From: Seleniivibrio woodruffii
GTDB taxonomy: Bacteria > Chrysiogenota > Deferribacteres > Deferribacterales > Geovibrionaceae
Direction of reading: 5' to 3'
Assembly: GCF_029267515.1 (NCBI RefSeq)
Contig: NZ_JAJUIS010000015.1
Location: 1 to 40,630, forward strand
DNA length: 40,630 nucleotides
Shown: positions 2,962 through 40,263 of the stretch, one piece after another
Layout: each line of letters begins with the position of its first letter
Position numbering within the stretch: position 1 is the stretch's first letter
Made by a program: the position numbers and the translations under genes
Notes under the pieces: model-generated
Databases searched by the model: none
What the model was told of the DNA's origin: nothing
The model's input: only the letters and a program-made list of their open reading frames with translations

Positions 2962-3018
2962 ACAGAACTTATACCACGTTTAGACTTCTTTTTCATGTAT
3001 ATAGCAGAAAAAAAGATA

Positions 3019-3034: not shown

Positions 3035-3044
3035 CTTATTGCAT

Positions 3045-3073: not shown

Positions 3074-3095
3074 ATGCGCCGCATACGGAGAAAAT

Positions 3096-4064: not shown

Positions 4065-4276
4065 AACGGGAAACACTGATGACGTAAAAATAGCGTCACT
4101 GCAAACTGATGTGAAGCAGTCTCCCAAGTCAATTAAATGATGGCACCACTGTATCTTTGCGCGGAAGTTCGCTTCGTAGTGTTACTCCTCGCGAAGACGT
4201 GGAATATGCGTAGGCTGTTACGGGATACGCTCAGGTAATAGCGCGCACCTCAAAGTTATTTCCCTGTGCACGAAGT
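4065..4276. other. Convergent intergenic region with repeat-like fragment
   Basis: This lies between the ends of the transglutaminase-like gene (plus) and xth (minus). It contains a TGACG/CGTCA hairpin (4080-4098) without a T-tract. It also has stretches resembling the dispersed repeats often found in bacterial intergenic regions, such as GTGAAGCAGTCTCCC at 4111-4125. No gene or convincing intrinsic terminator is visible. Confidence 0.35.
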
Positions 4277-24144: not shown

Positions 24145-25332
24145 CTATTTCACGAGTGAGTTGACGGAGAACAGGGGTTCCATGATAGAAATTACGATGA
24201 AACCGACGATCAGACCGATGAACATGATGAAGACAGGTTCTATGACTGAAACAAATTTTGTGGTGAACTGCTCAGTTTTTCTGCTGTAATAAATATTTAC
24301 GCGCTCAAGGAGGTCGGGGAGATTACCGCTCTTCTCACCTGTTGCGGCGGCGGCAACAAACAGCTCTGTAAAGAGTCCGCTCTGGCTGACACTGTCTGAA
24401 AATTTCTTACCCGCGGCAACGCTCTCTGCGATATCCATGACAGCCTGACCCACATAGATGTTGGCTATACCGGGCGCAGTATTACGCAGAGCCTCCACAA
24501 GGGGCAGACCTTCGCGAAGCTGGAAACTCAGAACGTGGGACAGCCTTGAGGCTGTGACGTCCTTAACTATGTTCAGCCTGTAAAGCCTTTGGTCTATATA
24601 CATGCGGAATTTTCCCTTTATAGCATAAAATCTTGTGAACACAGAAACGCATACCATAAAAAACAGGAATATCAGCAGTCCGTAATGCTGTAAAAGGTTG
24701 GACATGAACAGAAGGAACTTGGTTGACGCGGGGATGTCCGCACCTGCGCTTTCGAAGATGCTCTGGAGCTTAGGCACAACGAACGCCAGCATGAAACCAA
24801 CGACGCCAAGACCCATAGTAAGAACAACTGTGGGGTATATCATTGCGCCCGTGAGTTTTTCTCCGGCCTTTTTCCTGTCCTCCTCAAACCTGGAAATGTC
24901 CATGAGGACGGAAGCCAGCCTGCCCACTTTTTCAGACGTTCTGACAAGGTGGACGTAAAGCTCGCCGAACATTTTTTTGTGCGCGTCCATTGCATCGGAA
25001 AATTTCTTTCCGCCGGACACCTTTTCGCACATATCCGTCAGCGCCGCCTTCATTTTTCTGTCGTTAACTGACTGCGCCGTTACAGACAATGCTTTTGTAA
25101 GCTGTATGCCGCTTGAAAGAAGTATGGAAAGCTGGAAAAACACGTCCGCCAGCGGTTTCTTTCTGAAAGATATGGAGAATTTTGATTGTTTGTCAGTGGC
25201 TTCCTTAATGCCTGAGATGAGAAGACCTTCGCCCATGAGCTTTGACAGAGCAGTATTTTTGCCCGAAGCCTCAAGCCTGCCTTTAACCTTTTTTCCCTGT
25301 TTGTCTATCCCTTCGTAAGAGAAAACAGGCAT
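24145..25332 (-). CDS. gspF: Type II secretion inner-membrane platform protein GspF
   Basis: A 395-residue polytopic membrane protein that anchors the GspE ATPase and the pseudopilus base. It has the T2SSF family layout: an N-terminal cytoplasmic region (MPVFSYEGIDKQGKKVKGRLEASG), then two copies of the T2SSF domain, each ending in membrane helices, with the second near FVSVIEPVFIMFIGLIVGFIVISIMEPLF at the C-terminus. Length is normal. ATG overlaps the gspE stop by one base. It is the last gene of the minus-strand secretion operon; I see no clear terminator after it. Confidence 0.95.
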   Translation of the reverse strand: MPVFSYEGIDKQGKKVKGRLEASGKNTALSKLMGEGLLISGIKEATDKQSKFSISFRKKPLADVFFQLSILLSSGIQLTKALSVTAQSVNDRKMKAALTDMCEKVSGGKKFSDAMDAHKKMFGELYVHLVRTSEKVGRLASVLMDISRFEEDRKKAGEKLTGAMIYPTVVLTMGLGVVGFMLAFVVPKLQSIFESAGADIPASTKFLLFMSNLLQHYGLLIFLFFMVCVSVFTRFYAIKGKFRMYIDQRLYRLNIVKDVTASRLSHVLSFQLREGLPLVEALRNTAPGIANIYVGQAVMDIAESVAAGKKFSDSVSQSGLFTELFVAAAATGEKSGNLPDLLERVNIYYSRKTEQFTTKFVSVIEPVFIMFIGLIVGFIVISIMEPLFSVNSLVK

Positions 25333-26777
25333 TACTTGGCACCTATAACGGCGATTATCTCACCCGCACAGGTGACGCCTTCTGAAACAAGATCATAACC
25401 ATGGAATACGAACGGTTTATATCCGCTCTTAACCGCCTCTTTTGCTATTTCCGAAGCGTCCGCTTTGGCGTTTATAAGTCTGCGGATGCCATCGCTGATG
25501 GTTACCATCTCGAAAACACCAACCCTGCCTGCAAAACCTGTGTGCATACACTCGTCGCAGCCGACGGGTTCGTATATGTGCTTGGGCAGTTTCCCTGCCG
25601 GTTCAAAGAACTCTTTAACGTATTTTTCAGGCTCCACCTCTTTTTTGCAGTGGGGGCAGAGCTTTCTCACCAGACGCTGACCGATTACCGTAACCAGCGC
25701 GGAGGAGAGAAGGAAAGGTTCAACGTCCATGTCCAGCATACGCGCAACAGCTGTTGGCGCGTTGTTGGTGTGCAGAGTTGAAAGCACAAGGTGACCTGTC
25801 AGAGCCGCCTGAACGGCTGCGGACGCAGTTTCCTTGTCCCTGATCTCACCGATGAGGATAACGTCGGGATCCTGTCTGAGAAACGCTCTTACAGCCGATG
25901 CAAAGGTGATGTCCACAGTACGGTTCACCTGCACCTGCGTAATCTTCTCCATATGGTATTCCACCGGATCCTCTATGGTCATAATGTTTGTGTCGTCGCT
26001 TATCATCTCCGACAGTGCAGAGTAAAGGGTTGTGGTCTTACCTGAACCCGTGGGACCAGTAACCAGAATGATTCCGTTCGGTCTCTTAATGGCTTTTCTG
26101 AAATCCGGCAGCATAGATTCCGGCATACCCGTTTTTTCCAGAGTTACCATCGTTTTTGATTTTTCCAGAATCCTCAGTACGGCTTTTTCGCCCGTAACGG
26201 AGGGAACGGTTGAAACCCTTATATCCACATCTCGGTTACCGATGCGGATGTTGATACGTCCGTCCTGCGCCTTTCTGGTTTCGGCAACGTCAAGGTCGGA
26301 CATAACTTTTATACGCGCGATGACAGATTCCTGAAGGTTTTTGGGAAATTCGCGGATGGTGGCAAGTTTTCCGTCGATGCGGAAACGCACTGCGAATCTG
26401 CCTGTAAGTCCCTCAAAGTGAATATCACTCGCGCCGGATTTAACGGCTTTGATAACCGTGCTGTTCACAAGTCTTATGATTGGCGCATCATCGTATGAAG
26501 CGGCAAGGATGTCGTCAGCCCCTTCAATATCCTGAATATCCCCCTGAAACTCGTCGGTGCGGGAAGATTCCAGCGCCTCAAGAACGGCAAATATCCTTTG
26601 TTTGTCTGCTTCTTCCGTTTCCAGTTTCTCGCCTGTGACAAACAGCAGATGCCTTGCCTTGGCAAGTCCCGCCGCGCCGCTGTAAAGCATTACGGCGCTG
26701 TCGCCCAGCCGCTCCGGCGCAAAATCAGTGCGGTCAGGATATTTCAGATAAAATTCAACCAGTTTTGCGTAATCCAT
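25332..26777 (-). CDS. gspE: Type II secretion ATPase GspE
   Basis: A 481-residue hexameric ATPase that powers pseudopilus assembly at the cytoplasmic face. It has Walker A GPTGSGKTTTLYSAL (about residue 240-255), the Asp box, Walker B DPDVILIGEIRD, and the His box STLHTNNAPTAVARM. A tetracysteine zinc module lies in the C-terminal domain: CPHC followed by CDEC about 37 residues later. The N-terminal GspE/PilB-like domain is short. Start and stop overlap with gspD and gspF by one base. Confidence 0.96.
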   Translation of the reverse strand: MDYAKLVEFYLKYPDRTDFAPERLGDSAVMLYSGAAGLAKARHLLFVTGEKLETEEADKQRIFAVLEALESSRTDEFQGDIQDIEGADDILAASYDDAPIIRLVNSTVIKAVKSGASDIHFEGLTGRFAVRFRIDGKLATIREFPKNLQESVIARIKVMSDLDVAETRKAQDGRINIRIGNRDVDIRVSTVPSVTGEKAVLRILEKSKTMVTLEKTGMPESMLPDFRKAIKRPNGIILVTGPTGSGKTTTLYSALSEMISDDTNIMTIEDPVEYHMEKITQVQVNRTVDITFASAVRAFLRQDPDVILIGEIRDKETASAAVQAALTGHLVLSTLHTNNAPTAVARMLDMDVEPFLLSSALVTVIGQRLVRKLCPHCKKEVEPEKYVKEFFEPAGKLPKHIYEPVGCDECMHTGFAGRVGVFEMVTISDGIRRLINAKADASEIAKEAVKSGYKPFVFHGYDLVSEGVTCAGEIIAVIGAK

Positions 26778-28609
26778 TACTTGAACTCGTTCCTGATTTT
26801 TTCATCGATCTGCTTTTTAAAGTCCAGCGATTCCTGATGCTTGCTCTCGGTGAGTTTTTCCGCCTCTTCATGAGTGTTTATGATATGAGCGGATATGAAC
26901 ACCATCATATTTGTTTTTTCGTAGTTTGTGCTTCTGTTTTTAAACAGCCATCCGATAACGGGAATCTTGGACAAACCGGGTATGGCGGAGTCGCTTCTGT
27001 CGCTGTCGTCTTTCAGCAAACCAGAAATGACAACCATAGAACCGTTTCTCAGCTTGATTCTTGTTTTGGTGGAGCGCGTAAGAGTTGTGGGAGAGGTAGA
27101 GTCTGCGGAGCCTTCCGCAACCTTCTTGACTTCCTGCTCTATTTTCAGCGTAACCGAGTCGTCGGAGCTTATCTGGGGAACTATTTTCAGCTTAACGCCC
27201 ACGTCGTTGTATTCATATGACTGAACGGGGTTGTTGTTCGAGTCGTATTTTGTGCTTGTAAGGAAGGGTCTGTTCTCACCAACAAAAACTTCCGCCTCTT
27301 CGTTGTCCAGAGTAAGTATCTGGGGGTTTGAAAGGATGTTGATGCCGCTTGCGGTCTTGACGAAGTTAACGAGAAGTCCGATGCTGGGGAAGTTAAGCCC
27401 TTCGTATGAAACCACGTCGCCCAGCACGCCGAGGTTGAAGCCTGTGCTCAGTGAAGAGGCGTTGCCGTTTGCGAAGTTCATAAGGTTATTGTCGCTGCCG
27501 ACATAGCCGATTGTTCCGGCGGTATTGCCGTTACCAACCGTACCCTGCCATTCCACGCCGAATTTGTTTCCGTTGTCCAGAGTGGTCTCAAGGATAAGCG
27601 CTTCAACGTATACCTGACGTCTGGGCACATCCAGTTTCTTGATGAGTTCGTCTATCTTGCCGTAAAGCTCCTGATCACCGAAAACGATGATGGAGTTTGT
27701 AGCCTTGTCAAAAGATACGGATGATTTCACCTTTGCGGCGGTCTTGCCGTCCGTTCCCGCCTGCGCTATGGTGCCCGTAAGGGTGTTGAGTACTTTGTCA
27801 ACGTCCTCCGCGTTGGCGTTTTTAAGATAGAAAACTCTGGGTGCATTGAAGCTGCCCGGGCTTTTGGTATCAAGCTGGGCAACGATAGTATTTATTCTTT
27901 CGAAATCGCCGTCAAGCGAGGCGACGAGTATTATATTGGCATAATCGTCCGCAACAATAACCGGATCTGTTGCGATAAGGCTCTTTTTCTCCATATCTGC
28001 AAAGAGCTTGGTCATTTTATCCGCAACGTTGCTTGCGGAAGCGTTCTCAATTTTTATGGAGCGGATGGTGAAGTTTTGCGCTCTCTGATCGAGCTTATCC
28101 ACAAAGGAGCGTATTTTAACTATTCTGGAAACGCGGTCTCTTACGACGATTGCGTTGATGCTTTTAATAACTTCCGCATATCCGCCTTTGGACTTCATTT
28201 TGTTCAGTGCGTTTACAAGCACTCTCGCGTCAAAGTTTTTCGGGTGGATAACGGTTGTTATGAGCGCGTTCGCTTCGCCCGTGCCGGATGAGTCGTCGGC
28301 ATCCATGAAATCAGCCTGTTTGACGATCTCATAGTAGTTGCCCCTGTCCACAAGCTCAAATCCGTTAGCGCGCAGAGTGGAGGCAAAAATGTCTATAACG
28401 TCGGATGAACGTATCTGCGTGGCGGAATCGATGCTGACCTTTCCTTTAAGAGCGTTTTTGTCATAGACAAAATTCTTCTTGGTGAATTCCGAAACGAACG
28501 TAACAAAGTCCGTAAGCTCCATATCACTGAAATTCACATTAAATCCCGCATTCGCCGTACCAACGGCAAAAAGCAGTATAATCAATACAAACTTTCTGAT
28601 CAGGTTCAT
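26777..28609 (-). CDS. gspD: Type II secretion outer-membrane secretin GspD
   Basis: A 610-residue protein that forms the outer-membrane channel. A signal peptide of about 21 residues ends at VGTANA. It is followed by the N0 domain (FNVNFSDMELTDFVTFVSEFT), N1-N3 repeats (for example TTVIHPKNFDARVLVNALNK and VFYLKNANAEDVDKVLNTL), and the C-terminal secretin domain (LIQ-type strand VYVEALILETTLDNG, then GSMVVISGLLKDD and IPVIGWLFKNRS). No separate pilotin gene is visible. ATGA overlap with gspC. Length is slightly below the usual 650-700 residues, with all domains recognisable. Confidence 0.95.
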   Translation of the reverse strand: MNLIRKFVLIILLFAVGTANAGFNVNFSDMELTDFVTFVSEFTKKNFVYDKNALKGKVSIDSATQIRSSDVIDIFASTLRANGFELVDRGNYYEIVKQADFMDADDSSGTGEANALITTVIHPKNFDARVLVNALNKMKSKGGYAEVIKSINAIVVRDRVSRIVKIRSFVDKLDQRAQNFTIRSIKIENASASNVADKMTKLFADMEKKSLIATDPVIVADDYANIILVASLDGDFERINTIVAQLDTKSPGSFNAPRVFYLKNANAEDVDKVLNTLTGTIAQAGTDGKTAAKVKSSVSFDKATNSIIVFGDQELYGKIDELIKKLDVPRRQVYVEALILETTLDNGNKFGVEWQGTVGNGNTAGTIGYVGSDNNLMNFANGNASSLSTGFNLGVLGDVVSYEGLNFPSIGLLVNFVKTASGINILSNPQILTLDNEEAEVFVGENRPFLTSTKYDSNNNPVQSYEYNDVGVKLKIVPQISSDDSVTLKIEQEVKKVAEGSADSTSPTTLTRSTKTRIKLRNGSMVVISGLLKDDSDRSDSAIPGLSKIPVIGWLFKNRSTNYEKTNMMVFISAHIINTHEEAEKLTESKHQESLDFKKQIDEKIRNEFK

Positions 28610-29475
28610 CCTTTTATCTCCACATATATGGTCTTTTTCTGCTGTGCTCTTTCTATATCAAGCGTAAGGGCGCTCAGATTTTCTGCATTTGCGAGGGTGT
28701 CGAAGAAAATGGTGGGGTTTTTAAGATCTTTTCCGTTAAGCCTTATGATAACGTCGCCGGAGATAAGCCCCATCTCAACCAAAGCCGAATCCGGCTTCAT
28801 TCTTGAAAGGCGGTAGCCGACAAATTTTCCGTCACGGTCGTATGGGTTTATAGCCACAGACTTCATGACGGAGTTTATATTTGAAAGTTTTTCTATAACT
28901 GTTCGTCTGGGCATTGTCTTTCTGTCCACGCCTCCGGGAACAGAGGAGGCTGCGGCGGAAGGACCGTTCTGATTCTGTCCCGCCATGGGGTCTTTTATGT
29001 CGAGGGAGAGCTTGCTGCGCGCTCCGTTCTGTTCAATCTCAACCTCTGTTTCTCCGGCGGAGACCAGAAGAATACCCTCTTTTTCAAACCCCTGTCTGAG
29101 AACAAGGTTTTTGCCGTCCGGTTTTTTAAGGATGGCAAAGGATTCACCTGTGCCTTTCAGAACGCCTACAAGTTTAAGACCTCCGGCGTCCTGTGCCGGA
29201 GCAGCCTGCGGTGTTCCGTCAGGGTTAAAGGAGGGTTCGAAGCCAACAGCGTCAAGTGTACCTTTAACAGACAGGGTTTCCGCTTTAAAGATGTTCTTCT
29301 GCACTATAAACTCTGTGCTGGGTTCGCTGCTGACGTTCAGACGCGCGCCTCTGCCCTCTGCGCCGAGGGAGATGTTCGCAGTGGAGCGGTACTGTAAAAA
29401 GCCTGTTACTGCCCAGGCAATAAATACTCCTGCCGCGACAGGATAAGCAATGTAGTTATAATTAATTTTCATCAT
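28606..29475 (-). CDS. gspC: Type II secretion protein GspC
   Basis: A 289-residue inner-membrane protein that links the platform to the secretin. It has one N-terminal membrane helix (about 8-27), a homology region at about 50-150 (FIVQKNIFKAETL, KLVGVLKGTGESFAILKKPDG), and a C-terminal PDZ domain (about 200-289: GYRLSRMKPDSALVEMGLISGDVIIRLNGKDL). Family proteins use the homology region to contact GspD and the PDZ domain for substrates. It follows the CPBP protease gene by 28 bp. The start is MM with a weak ribosome binding site. Confidence 0.9.
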   Translation of the reverse strand: MMKINYNYIAYPVAAGVFIAWAVTGFLQYRSTANISLGAEGRGARLNVSSEPSTEFIVQKNIFKAETLSVKGTLDAVGFEPSFNPDGTPQAAPAQDAGGLKLVGVLKGTGESFAILKKPDGKNLVLRQGFEKEGILLVSAGETEVEIEQNGARSKLSLDIKDPMAGQNQNGPSAAASSVPGGVDRKTMPRRTVIEKLSNINSVMKSVAINPYDRDGKFVGYRLSRMKPDSALVEMGLISGDVIIRLNGKDLKNPTIFFDTLANAENLSALTLDIERAQQKKTIYVEIKG

Positions 29476-29503
29476 TCCGCTTTTTTCCGCATAGGTTCAT
29501 GTG

Positions 29504-29959
29504 TCAGACAACCGCTGCATTGAGATTATATATACTATGGAGCAAGATTGCAAAGGAAACTCTTCCGGTTCTGTCATATAAAAAGCCTATTACAAGCGAT
29601 GGTGCGAAAACCATAAGCCCGTGTTCAACTCCCCAGCCGGCAATGTGAACGCCCGCAAACAACGCCGAGGCAAGAACGTTAGCCCCAGACACACCAAAAA
29701 CAATTGATGTTACTCGTCTTTTCAACCAATTCTGAACAAGCCCCCGAAAGAATAACTCTTCTGCAACCGGTGCAAAAATAAAAAAAACCAGCAGCATATA
29801 CGGCGACGGCATGACAAATCTGCCGCCTGTTATCAGACGCAGACCGATCCAGAAAAAACCTAAAAAAATAAAAAACAAAAGCAGGGCAACGTCTGTCCTT
29901 GTTAAAGGGGGAACCGGAACAATACCGGCATCAGCCCCGCCGTCTTTAATATATGTCAT
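29504..29959 (-). CDS. CPBP-family glutamic intramembrane protease heading the T2SS operon
   Basis: A short 151-residue membrane protein, about five hydrophobic helices. It has all three CPBP motifs: EExxxR (Glu67, Glu68, Arg72 in APVAEELFFRG), FxxxH (Phe101, His105) and HxxxN (His141, Asn145 in LLHSIYN). CPBP proteins are glutamate-dependent intramembrane proteases. Small members of this size serve as sorting enzymes that cut C-terminal membrane anchors of secreted proteins in some bacteria (MYXO-CTERM type systems). Being first in the gspC-D-E-F operon makes a role in processing type II substrates attractive, but no substrate is identified here. No clear ribosome binding site precedes the ATG; the transcript may be leaderless. 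Confidence 0.82.
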   Translation of the reverse strand: MTYIKDGGADAGIVPVPPLTRTDVALLLFFIFLGFFWIGLRLITGGRFVMPSPYMLLVFFIFAPVAEELFFRGLVQNWLKRRVTSIVFGVSGANVLASALFAGVHIAGWGVEHGLMVFAPSLVIGFLYDRTGRVSFAILLHSIYNLNAAVV

Positions 29960-29964
29960 GACAA

Positions 29965-29994
29965 ATCATCTATTGAATCTGGGTGGTTTGTCAA
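29965..29994 (-). promoter_or_regulatory. Candidate promoter for CPBP-gspCDEF operon
   Basis: On the minus strand TTGACA (29989-29994, perfect) is followed by 18 bp and GATGAT (29965-29970, 4/6). Transcription would begin at or next to the ATG at 29959, implying a leaderless message, consistent with the absence of a ribosome binding site. Confidence 0.4.
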
Positions 29995-30001
29995 ATATAA
30001 T
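29973..30001 (+). promoter_or_regulatory. Sigma-70 type promoter for gspG-N operon
   Basis: TTGAAT (29973-29978), 17-bp spacer, TATAAT (29996-30001, perfect). It ends 37 bp before the gspG ATG. It physically overlaps the divergent minus-strand promoter. Confidence 0.72.
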
Positions 30002-30038
30002 AACACCGAAGATAAAACCGATTTGATTGAGGTGCAGA

Positions 30039-30473
30039 ATGAAAAACAGCAAGGGCTTTACTATCATTGAGATACTGGTGGTGCTTGTCATCCTCGGTAT
30101 TCTGGGGACGCTTCTGGTGCCGAAACTGCTCGACAAACCCGATGAAGCAAGAATCACAAAAGCCAAACTCGACATGAAAGCCATCGAGGCGGCGCTCAAA
30201 ATATACAAGCTGGAAAACAGCATCTATCCCTCCACTGAGCAGGGGATTGAGGCTCTGGTGAAAGAGACCACAATCGATCCGGTGCCCACCAGCTTTAAAA
30301 AAGGCGGATATATCGAAGAGGTTCCGAAAGATCCGTGGGGCGGTGACTACGTTTACAGAAGCCCCGGCGACGAAGACCGCGACTATGAAATAATCTGCTA
30401 CGGAGCAGACAGGAAAGAGGGCGGCGAAGGCGTTAACGCGGACATAAAGAGCTTTAATGACAAACAGGAATAA
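30039..30473 (+). CDS. gspG: Major pseudopilin GspG
   Basis: A 144-residue protein and the main subunit of the type II pseudopilus. The start is the ATG at 30039 with GAGG upstream; an in-frame TTG 12 bases earlier is inside that site. A short basic leader ending in Gly is followed by the prepilin core [16 protein letters not shown], with Glu at position 5 of the mature chain. [11 protein letters not shown] and the [13 protein letters not shown] calcium-site region mark it as GspG. Processing needs a prepilin peptidase (GspO) not found in this window. It overlaps gspH by 17 bp. Confidence 0.96.
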
Positions 30474-30882
30474 CACCCGCGGCTTCACTCTGGTGGAGCT
30501 TCTGGTTGTAATGGTTATAATGGGACTCGGATTCATCTCCCTGTCGCCCTCTCTGGCGGAAAAGACCGTTAAGGGCGGCGGGGACGAATCCTTTTTCAAC
30601 GAACTGATTCAGTCGCAGTTGAAGGCTGCGAAAGACCTTAACCGACAAGTGTTCATAAAAGGCACCGTAGGCACCGAAGACCTGCTGCTCTCGGACGGTA
30701 AAACGATCACAATTCCCCTCGGCAAAGTTGACAGCGTTAAAATCAACGACAAAGACGTAAATGGTGTTGAATACTACATATATTTCTATCCGGACGGAAT
30801 CTTCGATGATTTTGAAATGGAAATTTCCGACGGAAAAGTTGTTCAGTCATACCCCATGCTTGCAACGGTGGTGGTTAAATGA
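30457..30882 (+). CDS. gspH: Minor pseudopilin GspH
   Basis: A 141-residue prepilin-like protein. The leader MTNRNNTRG precedes the helix [24 protein letters not shown] with the conserved Glu5. The C-terminal domain is a beta-rich GspH/FimT-type fold. It forms part of the pseudopilus in the inner membrane and periplasm. Assignment to GspH rather than another minor pseudopilin rests mainly on its place between gspG and gspI. Its start lies inside the end of gspG and its stop overlaps gspI (ATGA). Confidence 0.82.
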
Positions 30883-31217
30883 ACGGCAAAGGTTTTACCC
30901 TGATAGAGATTCTGATAGCTCTTGCCATACTTTCGCTGAGTATGCTTGGCATATACCGACTGACCTTCGTCTCTCTGAACGCTTCGGAATACTCCGTGCG
31001 CAAAGCGTATGTCAACGAAGCCGGATATCTGCGCGTTCTGGAGCAGATGAACTATCCGGGCAGAAATTTCAACGAAACCAAAAACATGCCTGACGGCACA
31101 AAAATAAAATTCACAACCGAAACAGGCGCGGCACTTTATTCCGGAGTGGATGAGATAAAACTCACCTGCGAGGCGAAGGACGCAAAATCGGTGTACTACT
31201 ACTATGAAGCGCAGTAA
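30879..31217 (+). CDS. gspI: Minor pseudopilin GspI
   Basis: A 112-residue pseudopilin. A short leader MNGKG is followed by FTLIEILIALAILSLSMLGIY, the prepilin helix with Glu5. The remaining small domain contains the aromatic and Cys-bearing strands expected of GspI, part of the tip complex with GspJ and GspK. It overlaps gspH by 4 bp and gspJ by 14 bp. Length is normal. Order in the operon is the standard H-I-J-K. Confidence 0.88.
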   Translation: MNGKGFTLIEILIALAILSLSMLGIYRLTFVSLNASEYSVRKAYVNEAGYLRVLEQMNYPGRNFNETKNMPDGTKIKFTTETGAALYSGVDEIKLTCEAKDAKSVYYYYEAQ

Positions 31218-31830
31218 GAGCGGTTTCACGCTGATAGAAATGCTTATCGCCCTTGTAATCTCCTCATTCGTGGTGATGGGGGTCTATTCGCTGTTCAACT
31301 CAGTTCTGGCATCTAAAGAGGCTGCGGAAAAGAGCAACAGGGCAAACACCCTTCTTATATCATCGCGAAAGCTCTTTAAACCGGACCTGCTCCAGCTTTA
31401 TCAGGATTCGCTCACTATAAATAATGCCGGAAAGAATGCAGTTCTGAAATTCACCAGCCTGAACACTATAAAACTAGACCGTGCAATGCCGGTTGACATA
31501 ACATATTATGTTGACGATGACGGATGGCTCATCCGCAAAGAGGAACAGACCGATATCGGGTATGAATGGGAGCTGAGACTTCTGCCGGAAGTCACTGAAT
31601 TTACAGTTTATTCCCACAACGGTTACCGTTTCACCGAGGACTATGACAGCACCGACACAATAATTCAGGTGTCGTTCAAATATAAGGACATTCCCGTTGA
31701 GTTTGTTGCGGGCTGCGGCTTTACATCAAAAGGACTTACAGAAGCTGCACAGTCGGCATCAGACGGCACCTCGACAACCGATTCGTCCTCATCATCAACG
31801 GACACCCCGGCTGATATGGCGGAAAACTAA
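31204..31830 (+). CDS. gspJ: Minor pseudopilin GspJ
   Basis: A 208-residue pseudopilin of the tip complex. The leader MKRSKSG precedes FTLIEMLIALVISSFVVMGVYSLF. A beta-rich domain follows, and the C-terminus ends in an unusual Ser/Thr/Asp-rich tail (about residues 180-208), probably disordered. It overlaps gspI at its start, and its TAA overlaps the gspK ATG by one base. Assignment is by prepilin motif, length and position. Confidence 0.88.
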   Translation: MKRSKSGFTLIEMLIALVISSFVVMGVYSLFNSVLASKEAAEKSNRANTLLISSRKLFKPDLLQLYQDSLTINNAGKNAVLKFTSLNTIKLDRAMPVDITYYVDDDGWLIRKEEQTDIGYEWELRLLPEVTEFTVYSHNGYRFTEDYDSTDTIIQVSFKYKDIPVEFVAGCGFTSKGLTEAAQSASDGTSTTDSSSSSTDTPADMAEN

Positions 31831-32750
31831 TGAGAAACAATAAAGGTTCCGTACTTATCTTCGTGCTGATATTCATAGCCTTCGGAGCATCCGCAGCTAT
31901 TTACGTCTATGAAAAAAGCATGGAGAACTTTACGAACGTTTCCGACGACTTTTACGAAAACCAGTCCCATATCTATGCCATGTCCGCTGTGACAGCCGTA
32001 AAACAGCTTCTTGAGGATGACGACAACTCATACGACTCACGCGAGGAGGACTGGGCAATTATACCGCTGACAGAGGTACCCTACGGAACGGTATCAATCT
32101 CTGTTACACCGGTTAACGCAAAAATTCCTCTTAACGATCTGATTGAAAGCAAGGCATACGACGCCGAAAGGTTCCGCACGGCCTGCGAAGAAGTTGTGGA
32201 CGAGGAACAGATTGAAGGGCTGGACTGCGCGGAGATACTCGACTATATCGATGCGGACAGCGATACATCTGTCAGCGGAAATGAAAACGGCGGATATGAA
32301 TACTCCGGTATGGAGTTCAAAACCAAAAACGGACCTCTTGAAACCATAAGCGAACTGAGGATACTTTCGAAAGATCCCGACAACTATAACAAGCTGGTAA
32401 AATATTTTACATCTCAGGACGACGGCAACGCAATTAATCTCAACTTCGCATCGGAAGGCACCATAAAAATGTTCCTTCCGGAGCTGGAAGACTACGCAGA
32501 GCAGATCGCAGACTATACAAAGACCGACGAACTGAAAGACGTTTCGAACATACAGAAAGAATTCGGCGTTCCCTCGGACGTATATATGAAGGTGCTGCCC
32601 TACATCACCGTAAAAAGCACTTTATTTTATGTCAGGGTTGAGATAACCTTAAACGACGTTCCCCGTTTCTATCACGCTCTGGTGAGCAAAGAGGGCACCA
32701 ACACAGCGGTGATAAGATTTATGGCAGGTTTAGATGGAGACTACTACTAA
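31830..32750 (+). CDS. gspK: Tip pseudopilin GspK
   Basis: A 306-residue large minor pseudopilin that caps the pseudopilus. The N-terminal leader MRNNKG is followed by a hydrophobic helix SVLIFVLIFIAFGASAAIYVY. As in other GspK proteins, the usual Glu5 is absent. The helical insertion domain and the mixed fold are indicated by NAKIPLNDLIESKAYD, DYIDADSDTSVSGNENGGYE and KNGPLETISELRIL, which are typical of the GspK family. It overlaps gspL by 17 bp. Length is in the family range. Confidence 0.9.
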   Translation: MRNNKGSVLIFVLIFIAFGASAAIYVYEKSMENFTNVSDDFYENQSHIYAMSAVTAVKQLLEDDDNSYDSREEDWAIIPLTEVPYGTVSISVTPVNAKIPLNDLIESKAYDAERFRTACEEVVDEEQIEGLDCAEILDYIDADSDTSVSGNENGGYEYSGMEFKTKNGPLETISELRILSKDPDNYNKLVKYFTSQDDGNAINLNFASEGTIKMFLPELEDYAEQIADYTKTDELKDVSNIQKEFGVPSDVYMKVLPYITVKSTLFYVRVEITLNDVPRFYHALVSKEGTNTAVIRFMAGLDGDYY

Positions 32751-33720
32751 CACAATCCTTCTGACGGGCGGTTCCGATTTTTTTATTCTGACAGACGCCG
32801 CGAAAACTCCTGTGGATCAGGCGGCTGTACTCTCTATGAAATCAGGGTACAACCTGATAATTGACGACACCTCCTTTTTTTATACGGGAATGGAGTTTCC
32901 TCAGGCGCCAAAGAGAAAAACGGATATGTTTATCCGCAACTATCTGGCGTCACAGTTTCCCGCAGAGCTGACGTCCGTCTTCGCATACATGAAAAAGGGG
33001 GACAACTTCCTTATATGTATGCTGAAACCCGACCTTACGGAGAACAGGAACATGATGTCCGTTCTGAACAAAGCGGGCAGGGTCACAAGCCCTATGGCAA
33101 TACGCTACGGCACAACCGACACATTCGTGCACACCTATGCCGACACATCCATCCAGTCCGAGGACGGCATAATAACCCATATCGAAAAACAGGGGCAGAA
33201 TTCACCGAAACCCACTCAGGTTCCGGCATCCTCCGCCCTTACGATACCGTTCGTTAAAGCGCCGAAAGCGGCTCTCGGCGAATATAAATTCCACATAATA
33301 GCTCTGGCGGCAATCTACGCCCTGTTTGTTCTGGGTCTCTGGTTCAGATACGCGTATCAGGACAACAAGGTACAGCGTGCGGAAGGGATGCTTAACCGCA
33401 TCTATCAGCAGGCGCATGTTGCCGACACTTCCGCCCCATACGGTCAGCTTAAATTCAAAGCTGAAAAAGCGGGCGGCGGAGCATCTTTTGAAACGCTCGC
33501 CATACTGGAACAGATAAGCCGTGCACAATCCGAAAGGATAACGGCAAACTCCATAGACATTAAAAACAGAAGCGTGGTGTATGAAGGCGTCACATCTGAC
33601 TACGCCTTTATTGAAGACTTCCGTAAACAGCTTAAAAAAGAGACAGGCAAGGAGATTAACCTCCTCGACACCAAAAAGCAGGACGGAAACATTACCTTCA
33701 CATTGAGGTTTCAGCAGTGA
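32734..33720 (+). CDS. gspL: Type II secretion assembly protein GspL
   Basis: A 328-residue bitopic membrane protein. Its cytoplasmic N-terminal domain (about 1-190) should bind GspE. One membrane helix lies at about 192-213 (FHIIALAAIYALFVLGLWF), and a periplasmic ferredoxin-like domain (about 250-328) should dimerise with GspM. The sequence is divergent and shorter than the ~400 residues of proteobacterial GspL; identification rests on topology, length of the C-terminal domain and its position between gspK and gspM. Overlaps both neighbours. Confidence 0.75.
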   Translation: METTTNTILLTGGSDFFILTDAAKTPVDQAAVLSMKSGYNLIIDDTSFFYTGMEFPQAPKRKTDMFIRNYLASQFPAELTSVFAYMKKGDNFLICMLKPDLTENRNMMSVLNKAGRVTSPMAIRYGTTDTFVHTYADTSIQSEDGIITHIEKQGQNSPKPTQVPASSALTIPFVKAPKAALGEYKFHIIALAAIYALFVLGLWFRYAYQDNKVQRAEGMLNRIYQQAHVADTSAPYGQLKFKAEKAGGGASFETLAILEQISRAQSERITANSIDIKNRSVVYEGVTSDYAFIEDFRKQLKKETGKEINLLDTKKQDGNITFTLRFQQ

Positions 33721-34172
33721 ACAGAGATAAATTAACCATCACGGCACTGGTATGCGGGGTGCTTTTCCTCGTATTCTACTGGACATATTCGGGGTTCAGC
33801 TCCGCTACGGCAAAGGCTGAAACCGCATACTCAGACACAATCGAAAAAACCGGAAAGGCTCTGGACTACTACATGCAGACGCTTAAAGCGCCTGTTCAGA
33901 GTCCGAAAGTTGAGGAAGGACTGCTGAGTTTTATTGAAACCAGCGCAGAGGCTCTGGGACTTTCAAACCGTCTGGGCGATATGAAGCCCATAAACGTTCA
34001 GGGGGGCGAATCGGTCTCTTTCCGCGTTGACAGCGTCACTGGTGACGAGGCTGTCAGCTTCATACGCATACTTGAAGGAAGATCCAACATAAAACTGAAC
34101 AGCGTTAAGATAAGTAAAAGATTTGATAACGAAAAACGCCTTAATCTTGTGATACAGGCCGAGAAATCATGA
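33717..34172 (+). CDS. gspM: Type II secretion assembly protein GspM
   Basis: A 151-residue inner-membrane protein: a short cytoplasmic start, one membrane helix (about 7-26) and a periplasmic ferredoxin-like domain with a coiled region at about 30-60. The pattern GGESVSFRVDSVTGDEAVSFIRILEG is similar to GspM C-terminal domains. It would stabilise GspL. ATGA-type overlaps join it to gspL and gspN. Sequence conservation in the family is low, so the call depends on topology and place. Confidence 0.75.
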   Translation: MNRDKLTITALVCGVLFLVFYWTYSGFSSATAKAETAYSDTIEKTGKALDYYMQTLKAPVQSPKVEEGLLSFIETSAEALGLSNRLGDMKPINVQGGESVSFRVDSVTGDEAVSFIRILEGRSNIKLNSVKISKRFDNEKRLNLVIQAEKS

Positions 34173-34909
34173 ACAAAATCCTGATATCGTTCGGCATTTT
34201 TATTCTGGCATTTACAGCGGCACTCTGGGCTTTTTTTCCTTTCGGGTCATATATCGAAAATACGGCGTCTAAGTCCGCTAAAAACATGGGATTTCGTCTA
34301 AAATATGCCGGTGTTGAATCGGGCATGTTCTCCACCGAGCTGACAGGTGTGACAATCAACGAGAACGAGATAGGCGATTTCACTTTTCACCATACCCCTC
34401 TGACACTTTTCACCGGCAATATGAGCATTGACGTTAAGGGTATCTATACGGCACAGGCTAAGATTTCCGACTCGGATATGGAATTTGACGTTACAACCAG
34501 CGGCAGTGCTCTGGACTTCATCAAAGAACCGGTCAGCCTGCACGGCAACGTAAATGTTAAAGGCAATATAGACATCAAATCCGACACTTCGAAAATAAGC
34601 GTAAATGCCGACAAAATGCTTATGAAAACACCGCTGGGGGAGATGCCTTTCGAAAACATCTCTACAGACGTTGAAACAAAAGGCAAGATTATCACCATCA
34701 ATCATCTGCGATCGTCCGACAAAAACGAACTGGATATGAAAGGCAGCATAAGGCTGAACAGACTGAATATCGTCAACTCGGACGTTGACCTCAGCGGAAC
34801 AATAAAATTCGCCGGACAAAAACAGAACATCAGTATCAGAGGGGAAGTTCGCAATCTTCATCCTGTCATGGGCGACAACGGCTCACAAACCAATGAGGAT
34901 GAAGAGTAA
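34169..34909 (+). CDS. gspN: Type II secretion protein GspN
   Basis: A 246-residue protein. One N-terminal membrane helix (about 6-25, ISFGIFILAFTAALWAFFPFG) is followed by a long beta-rich periplasmic region with AsmA-like character (KNMGFRLKYAGVESGMFSTELTGVTI, MDMKGSIRLNRLNIVNSDVDLSGTI). That is the layout of T2SSN proteins, an optional component of the apparatus whose role is poorly defined. It is the last gene of the gspG-N operon, 31 bp from the convergent rhuM gene, with no clear intrinsic terminator between. Confidence 0.8.
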   Translation: MNKILISFGIFILAFTAALWAFFPFGSYIENTASKSAKNMGFRLKYAGVESGMFSTELTGVTINENEIGDFTFHHTPLTLFTGNMSIDVKGIYTAQAKISDSDMEFDVTTSGSALDFIKEPVSLHGNVNVKGNIDIKSDTSKISVNADKMLMKTPLGEMPFENISTDVETKGKIITINHLRSSDKNELDMKGSIRLNRLNIVNSDVDLSGTIKFAGQKQNISIRGEVRNLHPVMGDNGSQTNEDEE

Positions 34910-34940: not shown

Positions 34941-35954
34941 TCAGTTGTTTTTCTGTGCTATTCTCTTCTGGATGGTTTCAAGCTCCCGTATATCTTTTGC
35001 ATCTTCTTCCAGAGCTTCAGCTATCCTCCGCTTTTTATCAAAGTCATCAAAGCAACCATGAGCTATGGTTTTCATTTGTTCATTTCCGATGGAGCCGGAG
35101 CCTTTCAAGACAGGTTTATCATTGAACTCCAGCATCTTATCAACATTGTTCCGCCAATAGTCGAGAGTCAGCTTTTGTCTGTCCTTAACTCTGAGCTCAG
35201 CCTGTTCCAGAAAAATCACCACAAGTCTGTTGAGTGAGTCTATTTCATCAGAAGAAAGGTAGTTTTTTGCTATTATCACATCACTTTTGTGAACTCTGCT
35301 CCCTTTCCATGAAGTAAGATTCATATCCGGTTTATCAGAATCGGCTCTTTTAATAATTATCTCCGCAGCTGTGTACCCCGTGACAGCATAAAGCAGCTTA
35401 TTCTGAACTTCTGCAAAGAAAATATTTGTTGCCACCTTGTTGTCCTTATAATCAATACTCAAGGCAAAAAGATCACGAACTTTTTGATAAAATCTTTTTT
35501 CAGAAGCACGGATATCTCTGATGCGGTCAAGCAGCTCATCAAAGTAATCCCAACCGCCCGGATTTTTAAGCCTTGCGTCATCCATAACAAAGCCTTTGAC
35601 GATAAATTCTTTAAGCTGCCTTGTTGCCCACATACGGAAACGCGTGGCGATAATACTTTTAACCCTATAACCGACAGATATAATTACATCAAGATTGTAA
35701 TGGGGTACAGTTCTTTTCACCTGTCTGTCGCCTTCAATACGAACTACCGAGAAATACTCGGTAGTTGCCGGAGCTTCCAGTTCGCCCTCTTCGTATATAT
35801 TTTTTAAATGAAGAGAGATATTATCTTTCGAGCACCCGAAAAGATTTGCCATATCTATCTGAGTGAGCCATATGGTTTCGTCTTTAAGAAGAACATCCAG
35901 TTTGATATTACCGTCATCTGTCTCGTAAATAATTATTTCGCCTCTATTGTTCAT
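34941..35954 (-). CDS. RhuM-family protein
   Basis: A 337-residue cytoplasmic protein of the RhuM (virulence-associated, originally Salmonella) family. Its N-terminal half has the recognisable core: IYETDDGNIKLDVLLKDETIWLTQIDMANLFGCSKDNISLHLKNI, then TEYFSVVRIEGDRQVKRTVPHYNLDVIISVGYRVKS, then FRMWATRQLKEFIVKGFVMDDARLKNPG. The C-terminal half is helical, ending in a charged, probably coiled segment. The biochemical function is not known. Such genes occur scattered in accessory regions of many bacteria. It looks more AT-rich than its neighbours by eye, suggesting horizontal acquisition. It is transcribed alone from its own promoter. Confidence 0.85.
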   Translation of the reverse strand: MNNRGEIIIYETDDGNIKLDVLLKDETIWLTQIDMANLFGCSKDNISLHLKNIYEEGELEAPATTEYFSVVRIEGDRQVKRTVPHYNLDVIISVGYRVKSIIATRFRMWATRQLKEFIVKGFVMDDARLKNPGGWDYFDELLDRIRDIRASEKRFYQKVRDLFALSIDYKDNKVATNIFFAEVQNKLLYAVTGYTAAEIIIKRADSDKPDMNLTSWKGSRVHKSDVIIAKNYLSSDEIDSLNRLVVIFLEQAELRVKDRQKLTLDYWRNNVDKMLEFNDKPVLKGSGSIGNEQMKTIAHGCFDDFDKKRRIAEALEEDAKDIRELETIQKRIAQKNN

Positions 35955-36051: not shown

Positions 36052-37101
36052 TTATTTAAACAGTTTCAGATATTCGCCGTAACCTTCCTTTTCAAGATTT
36101 TCTTTCGGGATGAAACGGAGTGACGCGGAGTTTATGCAATAGCGCATACCGCCTTTGTCTTGGGGTCCGTCGTCAAAAACGTGTCCAAGATGCGAATCGC
36201 CGTATTTGCTTCGCACTTCGGTACGTTTGGAGAACAGTCTGAAATCCTCTTTCTCCGTTACCATGGACTTATCTATTGGTTTTGTGAAGCTGGGCCAGCC
36301 TGTACCGGAATCAAACTTATCCTTTGAGCTGAACAGCGGCTCACCTGTGGCGATATCAACGTATATGCCCTCTTTGTGATTGTCCCAGTATTCGTTGCTG
36401 AAAGGACGCTCAGTGGCTTCTTTCTGTGTCACGTTGTACTGAAGCTGCGACAGCTTCTTTTTAAGCTCGTCTTCCGACGGTTTTTTATATTTCTGATTCA
36501 CTTTCTTCTCCTGTTTTCCCCATGTGCGTTCGATGTACCCCGCCCTTCCGGAACCGACCTTATACCTGTCATAGTGGTCTTTATTGGTCTGGAAATAGTT
36601 CTGGTGGTAGTTCTCTGCCGCGTAGAACTTCTTTGCCGGCAGGATGGCTGTTGCTATAGGCATTTTGAATTTTCCGGATTTACCCAGCGCCTCTTTTGAT
36701 TTTTCAGCAACCGCCTTCTGCTGAGGAGTTGTATAGAACACTGCTGTGAGATACTGAGTGCCCCGGTCTGCAAACTGCCCGCCGTCGTCCGTTGGGTCGA
36801 TGTTCTTCCAGAATATGTCAAGAAGCCTTTCATATTTGACTTTTGCAGGGTCGTAAATTACACGCACAGCTTCATAATGCCCTGTCCTGCCTGTGGAAAC
36901 CTGTTCATATGTGGGGTTTTCTGTTTTGCCTCCGGTATATCCGGCGGAAACGTCCTTAACGCCGTCCAGAAACGAAAACGGAGGCTCCATACACCAGAAA
37001 CAGCCGCCTGCGAATATGGCAGTCTCATACTTCGCCGCCTGTGCCGCAGGGGCAATGCTGAACATCAGAAGCATCGGGATTATGTATTTTGAGTATCTCA
37101 T
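36052..37101 (-). CDS. msrAB: Periplasmic methionine sulfoxide reductase MsrA-MsrB fusion
   Basis: A 349-residue bifunctional enzyme that reduces both S- and R-methionine sulfoxide in proteins. The start is the ATG at 37101, with GAGG five bases upstream; a GTG two codons earlier is less likely. A signal peptide ends near AAQAA (residue 22), so it is exported. MsrA (about 25-195) has the catalytic GCFWCM. MsrB (about 210-345) has [17 protein letters not shown] and the catalytic Cys in RYCIN. The zinc-binding CxxC pairs found in many MsrB proteins are absent ([13 protein letters not shown] and [13 protein letters not shown] instead), a known subtype. It probably repairs oxidised envelope proteins. 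Confidence 0.94.
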
Positions 37102-37189
37102 ACGCACCTCATATTAAATAAGATGGTTTTGAAATGAAAAAGTCCAATATTTTTTTAAGCCGATGATTTTACGAATAATCCGGTCTGAT

Positions 37190-37230: not shown

Positions 37231-40230
37231 TTATCCGCCGCGAACGCACCTGGCATAATAAAGATAAGTTTTAGGATACATATTCGTACTTCCGTAACTG
37301 AAGTCAGAAATCAACGCATAAGTGGTCAAAAACTTATAAGTGGTGGATGACCAGTAATGGTTAACCGCAGTCAGGGTAAATGCCGGATTTATCGAAGGGT
37401 TACGGGTGCTTCTGTCAACGATGGACGAGAGCTCCCGCTGGTTCGGCAGTCTCCAGTCGGTATACCCGCCCAGAGATTTATCCTCGCAATAGGTTATAGC
37501 GTCTTCCCATGTGATCGCCGAACTCACCTCATCATCCTGCCACATAAGCCCGGTACGGTTATCGGTAACAATATTATTCGTGTCATCCCTCGCAAAGTCT
37601 GCGGCAGGATAGGCGTTTCCGCGAACACATCTGACATAGGAGTCCACATTATCCGCAGAGACAGCTCCGGAATCAAAAGAGATATACCACTCGTTACCGG
37701 CAAAAAACGCATGTGCCGTTGACGACCAGTAGCCGGCATAAGGAGAAACAGAAGTGAATACCGAATTTATTGCAGGAGCGAATCGCCCGAAGTCAACTAT
37801 TGATTCAAGCTCTTCTATAGTCGGCAAACGCCAATCCGTATAACCGCCCAGCGACAGGTTGTCGCATGTCGTACCGGCAGTGGTCCAATCCATAGCTGTC
37901 CCCACCTCATTATCCTGCCACATGAGACCGTTCAGACCATCCGTAACTGTGCCTGTTGCGGAATCTCTTGAAAAGGAAGGAGCAACACCCATCCCGTACG
38001 CACCGTCGTCATTCGCCGAATAGCTTATAGTCTGCCCTGTTTTGGCAAGTATCCACGGATAATGCACGGTCAGGTCAAACGCGAGTGTGCTTACTCCGCC
38101 ATCTCTTCCATCCCGAACTGTTATTGTAATATCTTCATATGTGCCAAGCACAGCCGTACCGGAAACAGTTCCTGTGGATGAATTTATACTCATCCATACC
38201 GGATTGCCCGATATACTGTATTCCAGAGTGTCGCCATCGGCATCACTGGCTGTGGGGGTGAAGCTGAGTTCCTCACCGTTCTTAACCGTTGCCGGTGTTC
38301 CGCTTATATCAGGCGCATGGTTCTGCACAGCTATGTCAAACGGCGCAAGGGATACGTTTGCGGTACCGTCGGAAACACTGATAACTATATTGCTCCACGT
38401 ACCCGTCTGTGTGGGCGTACCCGTAAGCGCACCTGTAGTTTCGCTGAACGTTGCCCAGTCCGGTTTGTTCTCGATGCTGAAAGTAAGCGTATCGCCGTTC
38501 GCATCATCTGCATCAGGTTCAAAACTGTATGCCGTATTGACATAAAGGGACACTGTCGGCGTACCCAGTATGGTCGGAGCAAAGTTGGGGTCTTCAACAG
38601 CTATACTGAACTCAGTAAGGGATGTTGTCGCTACTCCGTCTGAAACGCTTATGACAATATTTGTAAACGTTCCTGCTGTGGTCGTTCCGCTGAGCGCACC
38701 GGTGGATGTATTGAAACTTGCCCAGCTTGGTTTGTTGGCTATGCTGTAGGTCAGCGTGTCGCCGTCAGCATCGCTTCCTGACGGTGTAAAGCTGTAGTTT
38801 GCGCCCGTCTGTGCCGATGCTGTCGGTGTTCCGCTTATGGAGGGCGCCCGGTTTGTAACCGTTATAGTAAATGCCGGAAGGCTCGCTGTATCCATACCGT
38901 CTGAAACCGTTATCACGATATTTTCGAACGTTCCGACCTCAGCTGTTCCTGTCAGCGCACCCGTTGACTGGTTGAACGTAGCCCAGTCAGGCTTTCCTGC
39001 TATGCTGAAAGTTAACGTGTCATTGTCCGCATCCGCACCCGTCGGCGTAAAACTGTATAGAGCGTTGCGATAAACTGCCGTTATCGGTGTCCCGTCTACG
39101 GTTGGCGGAGTGTTCGGAGGAACAACCTCTGCCACCGTTATAGTGAACGGTGCGAGGCTAACCGTATCCGTGCCGTCACTGACACTTATGGTTATGCCTG
39201 TGTATATGCCTGTTACTGCAGTGCCCGTCAGTGCGCCTGTCGCCGTGTCAAAACTTGCCCAGTCAGGTTTTCCTGTTATGCTGAACGTAAGCGCATCGTC
39301 GTCCGCATCATCGGCCGTGGGGATAAAGCTGTAGCCTGCACCTTCAGCTATGGTATATGTCGGAACACCTGCAATTGTCGGTGCAGTGTTGGTCGGTGTC
39401 TCTTCGCCGCCGCCCGGCGTTGTCTGGCATACGTCGTTGCTCTTCACAATCTCGCATACCGCGCCGAGACCGTTCATCTCATCAGAAGGCGTATAACACG
39501 TCATCTGATAGCTGGCAAGCGCGGCGTTCGCATAGCTCATGCCGTATACCTCAGCCAGCTTCTGCGTCATTGCAGCCGTGAGAGCCTCACCGGTCCACGA
39601 ACCGCCTATCTCCATATAAATGTTATCATTCGCTGTCAGACCGCCGAAAATAAACACCTTCAGCCCCTGTACCCCCGAAATGAAATCGGATATTCCGTCG
39701 GCAGCGTAGCAGTCGGTCGTCCATCCATCTCCGGTGCGCTCGGACGTGCCCATATAAACGCTGTTCAGATTTTGCGCGTCGGTGCCGAAGCCGGTCGGAT
39801 GTCCTTTGCCCTGTTTCAGAACCACGCCAAGGTTGTATGAGGTCGCTCTCTCGGAGCGGTATTCAGCAGTCCTGCTTCTGGGATATCTCGCCGCCAGTTC
39901 CGAAGGCGTACCCACAAGAACAATATCCGCATATCTGCCGCTGTTGTCTGATACATATACAACGGACTTGCCGCCGCTCTCCGTGTATGACAGCTTAACA
40001 CCGCTGACCGGCTGACCGTCATCGCTGAGAGCGACTATCTCATATACAATTCCAAGCAGGACACTTGTAATAGCGGTTTTTCCCGCACTGTCCGTTACTG
40101 CGGAAACTTCAATTCCTTTGTATACTATCTCAGAGTTGGGAGTCTCGCTTGATGATGAACTTATGTTCTGATTGAAACAACCGAAAAGCATAAATACCAA
40201 TGCTATAATAACCATATAAATCAATCGCAT
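37231..40230 (-). CDS. Large lipoprotein with five Ig-like modules and two Lcl (DUF1566) domains
   Basis: A 999-residue surface or periplasmic lipoprotein. The start MRLIYMVIIALVFM at 40230 has GGAGG upstream; an in-frame ATG 33 bases earlier has none. The signal peptide ends in a lipobox, LFGC, and a Ser-rich linker follows. An unrecognised N-terminal region (about 30-280) includes several Cys and begins with a carboxypeptidase-regulatory-like strand set. Five tandem He_PIG/cadherin-like modules (about 282-723, ~88 residues each) repeat the pattern YSFxPxxxDADxDTLTFSI and VSDG. Two Lcl C-terminal-type domains close it (about 745-999), each with GLMWQD, GGYTDWRLP and YWSST, ending RCVRG. Lcl domains occur in secreted adhesins. 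Its role is probably adhesion or matrix binding; a promoter and terminator bracket it as a single gene. Confidence 0.85.
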   Translation of the reverse strand: MRLIYMVIIALVFMLFGCFNQNISSSSSETPNSEIVYKGIEVSAVTDSAGKTAITSVLLGIVYEIVALSDDGQPVSGVKLSYTESGGKSVVYVSDNSGRYADIVLVGTPSELAARYPRSRTAEYRSERATSYNLGVVLKQGKGHPTGFGTDAQNLNSVYMGTSERTGDGWTTDCYAADGISDFISGVQGLKVFIFGGLTANDNIYMEIGGSWTGEALTAAMTQKLAEVYGMSYANAALASYQMTCYTPSDEMNGLGAVCEIVKSNDVCQTTPGGGEETPTNTAPTIAGVPTYTIAEGAGYSFIPTADDADDDALTFSITGKPDWASFDTATGALTGTAVTGIYTGITISVSDGTDTVSLAPFTITVAEVVPPNTPPTVDGTPITAVYRNALYSFTPTGADADNDTLTFSIAGKPDWATFNQSTGALTGTAEVGTFENIVITVSDGMDTASLPAFTITVTNRAPSISGTPTASAQTGANYSFTPSGSDADGDTLTYSIANKPSWASFNTSTGALSGTTTAGTFTNIVISVSDGVATTSLTEFSIAVEDPNFAPTILGTPTVSLYVNTAYSFEPDADDANGDTLTFSIENKPDWATFSETTGALTGTPTQTGTWSNIVISVSDGTANVSLAPFDIAVQNHAPDISGTPATVKNGEELSFTPTASDADGDTLEYSISGNPVWMSINSSTGTVSGTAVLGTYEDITITVRDGRDGGVSTLAFDLTVHYPWILAKTGQTISYSANDDGAYGMGVAPSFSRDSATGTVTDGLNGLMWQDNEVGTAMDWTTAGTTCDNLSLGGYTDWRLPTIEELESIVDFGRFAPAINSVFTSVSPYAGYWSSTAHAFFAGNEWYISFDSGAVSADNVDSYVRCVRGNAYPAADFARDDTNNIVTDNRTGLMWQDDEVSSAITWEDAITYCEDKSLGGYTDWRLPNQRELSSIVDRSTRNPSINPAFTLTAVNHYWSSTTYKFLTTYALISDFSYGSTNMYPKTYLYYARCVRGG
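38062..39386 (-). repeat. Five tandem coding repeats (~265 bp each) in the lipoprotein gene
   Basis: Module boundaries fall near 39386-39110, 39109-38852, 38851-38588, 38587-38322 and 38321-38062, each beginning with a PxIxGTP-like codon run. The protein copies are similar but not identical, so recombination between them could change copy number. Confidence 0.75.
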
Positions 40231-40263
40231 GTTCTGTCCTCCGGCAAAATAATTTAAATCCAA

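Follow-up and report, generated by a model that had tools for sequence, protein, structure and literature searches.

A MrtJ-type intramembrane protease gene heads the gspC-F type II secretion operon in Deferribacteres

This analysis bears on how CPBP-family sortase-like proteases cooperate with the type II secretion system (T2SS) in bringing lipid-anchored enzymes to the cell surface. In Vibrio cholerae, the trypsin-like serine protease VesB bears a GlyGly-CTERM tail made of a Gly-rich motif, a helix and basic residues, which is cut by the intramembrane protease RssP (rhombosortase), and VesB is a T2SS export substrate (PMC6219818); RssP, however, is a rhomboid serine protease unrelated to the CPBP enzymes, and its target motif has no invariant Cys. 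An analysis published by Haft in 2011 gave no indication of rhombosortase being a marker for any T2SS subclass (PMC3237569). In Myxococcus xanthus, the CPBP protease MrtX serves the Cys-containing, tripartite MYXO-CTERM tail, and its clients are exported to the surface by the T2SS (PMC11980579). Lipidation of that Cys has been proposed, with Lgt as the candidate enzyme (PMC11980579). The T2SS component GspN is needed for export of lipoproteins in A. baumannii and K. pneumoniae, and in Acinetobacter soluble T2SS substrates do not need GspN whereas lipoproteins do (PMC12802150). The third relevant system pairs the protease MrtJ (NF033192) with the JDVT-CTERM tail (NF033191), both named by D. Haft and cited in a 2025 mBio paper (PMC11980579), which describes the MrtJ neighbourhood of beta- and gamma-proteobacteria as a two-gene pair, the protease and a single JDVT-CTERM target.

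Here we describe an mrtJ gene in a different setting, within a window of 40,630 nucleotides (the whole stretch of DNA analysed) from Seleniivibrio woodruffii. We propose, with a probability of about 0.77, that MrtJ would cut its client's tail at the inner membrane, the tail Cys probably having been lipidated first, and that the T2SS would then carry the anchored protein to the surface. Because enzyme and tail both belong to known families, the locus adds no new sorting system; what appears new, as far as checked, is the fixed position that mrtJ holds, across a class, as first gene of the gspC-F operon. We found no description of this arrangement in the literature; priority is uncertain and an earlier mention is possible.

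The mrtJ gene and its gsp locus

The initial annotation had recognised an intact CPBP protease of 151 residues with EExxxR/FxxxH/HxxxN motifs, lying 28 bp upstream of gspC as the first gene of its operon, and closer inspection bears this out. The open reading frame is intact from its ATG start and encodes 151 residues with the motifs EELFFR (E67, E68, R72), FAGVH (F101, H105) and HSIYN (H141, N145), the EExxxR, FxxxH and HxxxN signatures of CPBP intramembrane proteases. All seven of these residues are unchanged in 30/30 MrtJ orthologues, indicating that the motifs are not due to chance. The protein matched the Pfam Rce1-like family with 68.6 bits (cut-off 22.4) and the MrtJ model over positions 1-94 of 98; NF033192 is an equivalog model with a curated cut-off, and a match above it places the enzyme in a family already known. 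The remaining myxosortase models scored far under their own cut-offs (MrtX, 32 bits against 180; MrtC, 51.5 against 195; MrtP, 50.5 against 250). The MrtS/Synerg-CTERM system shares the CPBP type of protease and a Cys-containing tail, and the GspN- and GspC-like genes here weakly match Synergistota T2SS models, but the window protein reached 50 bits against the MrtS cut-off of 130. It was also the sole CPBP match in its own 2.83 Mb genome. A search by sequence returned no MrtJ relative with a solved structure (best E 0.32), and AlphaFold2 run with two sequences only gave a poor model (pLDDT 47.5). On the strength of family match and motifs, we identify the gene as mrtJ, encoding the glutamic-type intramembrane protease (CPBP/Rce1-like) of the JDVT-CTERM system; the gene thereby gains a probable function and named clients, where annotation might have stopped at a generic CPBP protease. 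The locus comprises the following features:

24145..25332, minus strand: gspF-like inner membrane protein; the frame abuts gspE, and the GspF identity comes from position and sequence
25332..26777, minus strand: gspE, ATPase (T2SSE PF00437, 9e-133)
26777..28609, minus strand: gspD, secretin (TIGR02517, 442 bits against a cut-off of 351; Secretin PF00263)
28606..29475, minus strand: gspC (GspC_delta NF041515, 7.5e-28, below its cut-off), with a C-terminal PDZ-like region
29504..29959, minus strand: mrtJ (NF033192, 83.3 bits against a cut-off of 75; PF02517, 5.8e-19), catalytic residues invariant in 30 orthologues
29960..30038, no strand: spacer separating the divergent mrtJ and gspG, with promoter-like sites on each strand
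30027..30473, plus strand: gspG, major pseudopilin (T2SSG PF08334, 1.8e-34), divergent from mrtJ
30457..31830, plus strand: minor pseudopilin genes gspH, gspI and gspJ (over cut-off for the TIGR02532 prepilin domain; family matches weak)
31830..34172, plus strand: gspK (T2SSK PF21687; NF037980, 5.6e-29, below cut-off), gspL-like and gspM-like genes (GspL, only 0.027; GspM by position)
34169..34909, plus strand: gspN-like (NF041619, 7.8e-7, and TIGR04411, 1.8e-5, both below cut-off)

These coordinates and the divergent gspG agree in placing mrtJ first in its direction of transcription. The gap to the downstream gspC spans 29476-29503 (28 bp), and gspC, gspD, gspE and gspF follow in one direction with ends overlapping or abutting, an order matched in two relatives' loci (L006 and L007). 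Two promoter-like pairs fall within 29965-30001, TTGACA-18-GATGAT on the minus strand and TTGAAT-17-TATAAT on the plus strand, and a further site at 29525-29554 is located within the 3' end of mrtJ; all are consensus matches only, and the last could be a source of transcription of gspC alone. The gspG frame opens with TTG at 30027 and has an ATG at 30039. The cluster (gspC-D-E-F with gspG-N) includes a true GspD by TIGR02517, while the GspL, GspM and GspN assignments are weak. Residues ~214-288 of GspC match the PDZ regions of HtrA/DegP, and this PDZ-like region, together with the GspN-like gene, would fit an anchored T2SS client.

Linkage of mrtJ to gspC across the class

The initial annotation had proposed that the CPBP-gspC linkage be followed in relatives, where it proved to be conserved. 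Strong MrtJ matches (E <= 2e-16) were present in 35/51 genomes of the phylum, 25 of them over the cut-off, and gspC lay immediately beside mrtJ on the same strand in 28/30 loci read, with a divergent gspG opposite in most. For the class as a whole, 31/35 MrtJ genes adjoin gspC, 30 of them read directly (the 28 loci plus those of G040 and G015) and one, in G042, placed by coordinates. The linkage spans five families and two orders and reaches members with only ~24% GspC identity to the window; one linked family, f9, belongs to the same class as the window and to a different order. Among named relatives, a Deferribacteraceae MAG and a Seleniivibrio MAG come closest to the locus. All four exceptions fall in a single family, f6, three with mrtJ in another context and the fourth (G033) with mrtJ on a short contig that carries no gsp genes close by; since f6 keeps MrtJ and tails apart from the operon, linkage is not required. 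MrtJ was not found in the three genomes of family f10, which lies outside the class. One relative's mrtJ (L007, in the draft assembly G027) carries an apparent frameshift around residues 30-41 and the genome keeps a tail-bearing trypsin, so that a sequencing error is likely.

This arrangement differs from the classical MrtJ/JDVT-CTERM pair, which it otherwise resembles in a protease and a tail that both exceed their cut-offs and in a tail with an invariant Cys, a helix and an Arg cluster. In the Deferribacteres, mrtJ heads gspC-F and one to five clients are encoded elsewhere, and in the loci read no client lay near mrtJ. The annotated mrtJ of a Sulfurovum plasmid, in contrast, directly follows the gene for a protein ending GGGGGCTYNPNLKKFDAMFFVILMLSLLYPWRRKIIR, a classical protease-target pair as in proteobacteria. 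The operon linkage also sets MrtJ apart from rhombosortase, for which no mark of a T2SS subclass was seen (PMC3237569), and from MrtX, which has about seven helices, many clients and a three-gene cluster and is not described as a T2SS operon gene.

We considered whether MrtJ might process tails while its place in the T2SS operon reflects inherited gene order, the clients staying in the inner membrane or leaving by another route. T2SS gene order is generally conserved, and distances in the MrtJ and GspC trees were correlated (r = 0.75, a value reached by 0 of 5,000 permutations), as expected of a gene inherited with its operon, although shared ancestry alone would also yield this. Family f6, with mrtJ apart from the gsp genes, and the Sulfurovum unit of MrtJ and target without T2SS genes point the same way. 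However, the linkage holds over five families and two orders down to the most divergent GspC proteins, and every MrtJ-positive genome retains at least part of a T2SS secretin. In one genome (G010), a true T2SS secretin, MrtJ and tails are all absent, whereas its genus mate G011 has all three; moreover, the T2SS is used by VesB and TraA, the nearest analogues that have been characterised. Inherited order without a role in export is thus an unlikely account, and we continue to favour processing by MrtJ coupled to export by the T2SS.

JDVT-CTERM tails, clients and the proposed pathway

The initial annotation had suggested a sortase-like enzyme for T2SS substrates acting on a sorting tail not yet described. 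A CPBP enzyme tied to a T2SS and a tripartite tail are both present, but the tail is JDVT-CTERM and the enzyme MrtJ, so the claim of novelty falls away. It had also proposed a scan of the genome for tripartite C-termini, which yielded one clear JDVT-CTERM member and no large family; the two outcomes that it had named as contrary, an absence of such C-termini and of the gspC adjacency in relatives, were not what we observed. Exactly one match to NF033191 exceeded the cut-off in the genome (31.4 bits vs 27), covering the C-terminal 34 residues of a trypsin-like protease that is 332 residues long and encoded on a different contig from mrtJ (G000:C5, L004:6531-7529, minus strand). Adjacency of client and mrtJ, the usual two-gene neighbourhood though no absolute requirement, is therefore absent, and mrtJ adjoins gspC instead. 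The client combines a signal peptide-like N-terminus (MITRLKILIIAGFVFISFLPASATD) with a trypsin domain (PF00089, 2.4e-61) bearing the serine-protease motifs TAAHC, DIALL and GDSGGP, followed by a Gly/Asp/Ser/Thr-rich linker and the tail GGGGGGGCSASKDGSPIALILMFTAGGIYLIRRRRA. This tail consists of a Gly-rich motif with an invariant Cys, a hydrophobic helix and an Arg cluster (RRRR) at the extreme C-terminus, and it scored 14.6 bits against the MYXO-CTERM cut-off of 20. In layout the client closely resembles VesB, from which it differs in having the Cys typical of MYXO- and JDVT-CTERM tails and in that its protease would be of the CPBP type and not a rhomboid.

A profile built from relatives' tails revealed no second credible tail in this genome, its other matches being helix-like stretches inside ordinary membrane proteins, which speaks against many clients. 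We also rejected a second NF033191 match on contig C13 (11 bits), which, on the same strand, overlaps a gene for a sigma-54-type regulator and is no tail. Rhombosortase was dismissed as a substitute for MrtJ, as none of the 51 genomes of the phylum had a TIGR03902 match over cut-off (best in this genome, 28.3 vs 84 bits). Collectively, these searches make the trypsin-like protease the probable main, possibly only, MrtJ client in this genome.

Tail-bearing proteins of relatives include trypsins, subtilases with Ig domains, LRR proteins and HYDIN/VesB-type Ig proteins, and their tails share an invariant GG-Cys, followed in nearly all by Ser, GGC(S). In two relatives (G021, L043/L056, G021:C14:34240-34732; G023, L044/L059, G023:C1:2366859-2367277), a trypsin and a subtilase gene, both tailed, are convergent with tail ends ~200-280 bp apart. 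In a third (L109, G025:C8:112500-120500), a plus-strand frame at 1048-4218 encodes 1057 residues with an interior JDVT-type tail, GGGGCSAADGSTDMLLILMLAGLFAALFRKK; after it come a signal peptide-like stretch, KKLAVAALITLTAATAGA, and what is probably an outer-membrane beta-barrel with YRF at its end. This layout matches that of Myxococcus MXAN_5598 (PMC11980579), and the frame may be a tail protein fused to a barrel.

Using the relatives' profile (E <= 1e-3), we detected tails in 28/35 MrtJ-positive and 0/16 MrtJ-negative genomes (Fisher 3e-8, a figure that counts related genomes as independent and so overstates their independence); the profiles were built mostly from MrtJ-positive genomes, which makes the 28/35 partly circular. 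The published NF033191 model, which is independent of these profiles, alone found tails in 18/35 vs 1/16 (p about 0.002). Seven MrtJ-positive genomes lacked a tail at E <= 1e-3, of which G040, G042 and G045 had weak matches, G016 and G046 are incomplete, G015 has a broken mrtJ and G005 is unexplained. A counter-case, G003 of another class, has no MrtJ and encodes a subtilase with a JDVT-like tail. That tail reads GGCGAGSSSD...RPRRNP (L047/L089, G003:C1:1726185-1726283, minus strand).

Two genomes serve as natural controls. In G014, the divergent gspG/gspC locus has ~120 bp between the genes, mrtJ is cleanly missing and no tail was found. In the single-contig genome G015, a frameshift splits mrtJ and no tail matched, a possible natural loss of the sorting pathway with the T2SS kept. 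At this locus (L103, G015:C1:884000-887500, about 800-1240), gspC is intact right behind the split mrtJ. Four other apparently MrtJ-negative genomes are not clean controls: in G009 and G012, both apparently T2SS-positive, contigs end at the expected mrtJ site, and by their positions G047 and G048 probably represent contig ends as well.

These genomes bear on whether the CPBP protein could instead be a T2SS accessory factor, directed at an assembly component or acting as an immunity-like protease, with another enzyme cutting the JDVT tail. Its association with gspC is stable in most genomes, even in G005, G016 and G046, which have no clear tail. However, the window protein exceeds the MrtJ equivalog cut-off, tails and MrtJ co-occur, and the genome holds neither a rhombosortase over cut-off nor a second CPBP protein that could do the cutting. 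In G014 and G015, furthermore, mrtJ is missing or broken although the T2SS operon otherwise looks intact, and these are just the genomes that have no tails, suggesting that the T2SS itself does not need MrtJ, and we judge an accessory role quite improbable. Chance adjacency of an ordinary CPBP protease and gspC can be dismissed, for although such proteases are common (11/14 control genomes), none in the control genomes exceeded the MrtJ cut-off and gspC directly adjoins mrtJ in 28/30 relatives' loci, mostly with a divergent gspG.

Returning to tail processing coupled to T2SS export, we infer from sequence that the client is cleaved, lipidated and exported, in four steps. Sec would export the client, with the C-terminal helix and RRRR holding it in the inner membrane and GG-Cys on the periplasmic side, as its sequence and the GlyGly- and MYXO-CTERM precedents suggest. 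A general enzyme would then lipidate the invariant Cys, the least certain step, for which Lgt is the published candidate in a related system. MrtJ, which has the catalytic residues E67/E68, H105, H141 and N145, would cleave beside the Cys. Finally, the adjoining T2SS, with its PDZ-containing GspC and GspN-like protein, would move the anchored client to the cell surface, a step suggested by the genetic linkage and by VesB and TraA. A protease at the head of gspC-F would match tail removal to export capacity.

These parts differ in strength: it is highly likely that MrtJ processes the client's JDVT-CTERM tail and likely that the client leaves through the T2SS of the mrtJ locus, while the odds on lipidation of its Cys are about even. 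The encoding of MrtJ beside the T2SS across one class points to a single pathway of cutting and export, and the precedents of VesB with rhombosortase and the T2SS (PMC6219818), of TraA with MrtX and the T2SS (PMC11980579) and of GspN for lipoproteins (PMC12802150) lend support. A more far-reaching proposal, on which we are evenly divided, is that in the Deferribacteres a C-terminal sorting protease has settled permanently into the T2SS locus and that MrtJ, the PDZ-bearing GspC and the GspN-like protein constitute a dedicated pathway of cutting, lipid anchoring and export for surface proteins; if true, it would be the first genetic lock of tail processing to T2SS export. In the Seleniivibrio genome the problem comes down to a single protease, a single clear client and a single T2SS encoded beside that protease, and with the natural controls, a relative that has the operon but neither mrtJ nor tails and another with a broken mrtJ and no tails, the coupling becomes directly testable in a small system.

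Genes flanking the gsp cluster

Directly after the gsp cluster, the window carries a RhuM-family gene (34941-35954, minus strand; PF13310, 2.8e-108), which is not at the matching place in L006 and L007 and is therefore probably a recent insertion. A fused MsrA-MsrB methionine sulfoxide reductase with a signal peptide-like start follows (36052-37107, minus strand), and this fusion adjoins the gsp cluster in L006 and L007 too. Beyond it, a 1010-residue frame (37231-40263, minus strand) contains five Ig-like He_PIG repeats and two Lcl_C domains; its likely start is internal, at MRLIYMVIIALVFMLFGC, a lipobox, and the product is probably a surface lipoprotein without a C-terminal tail.
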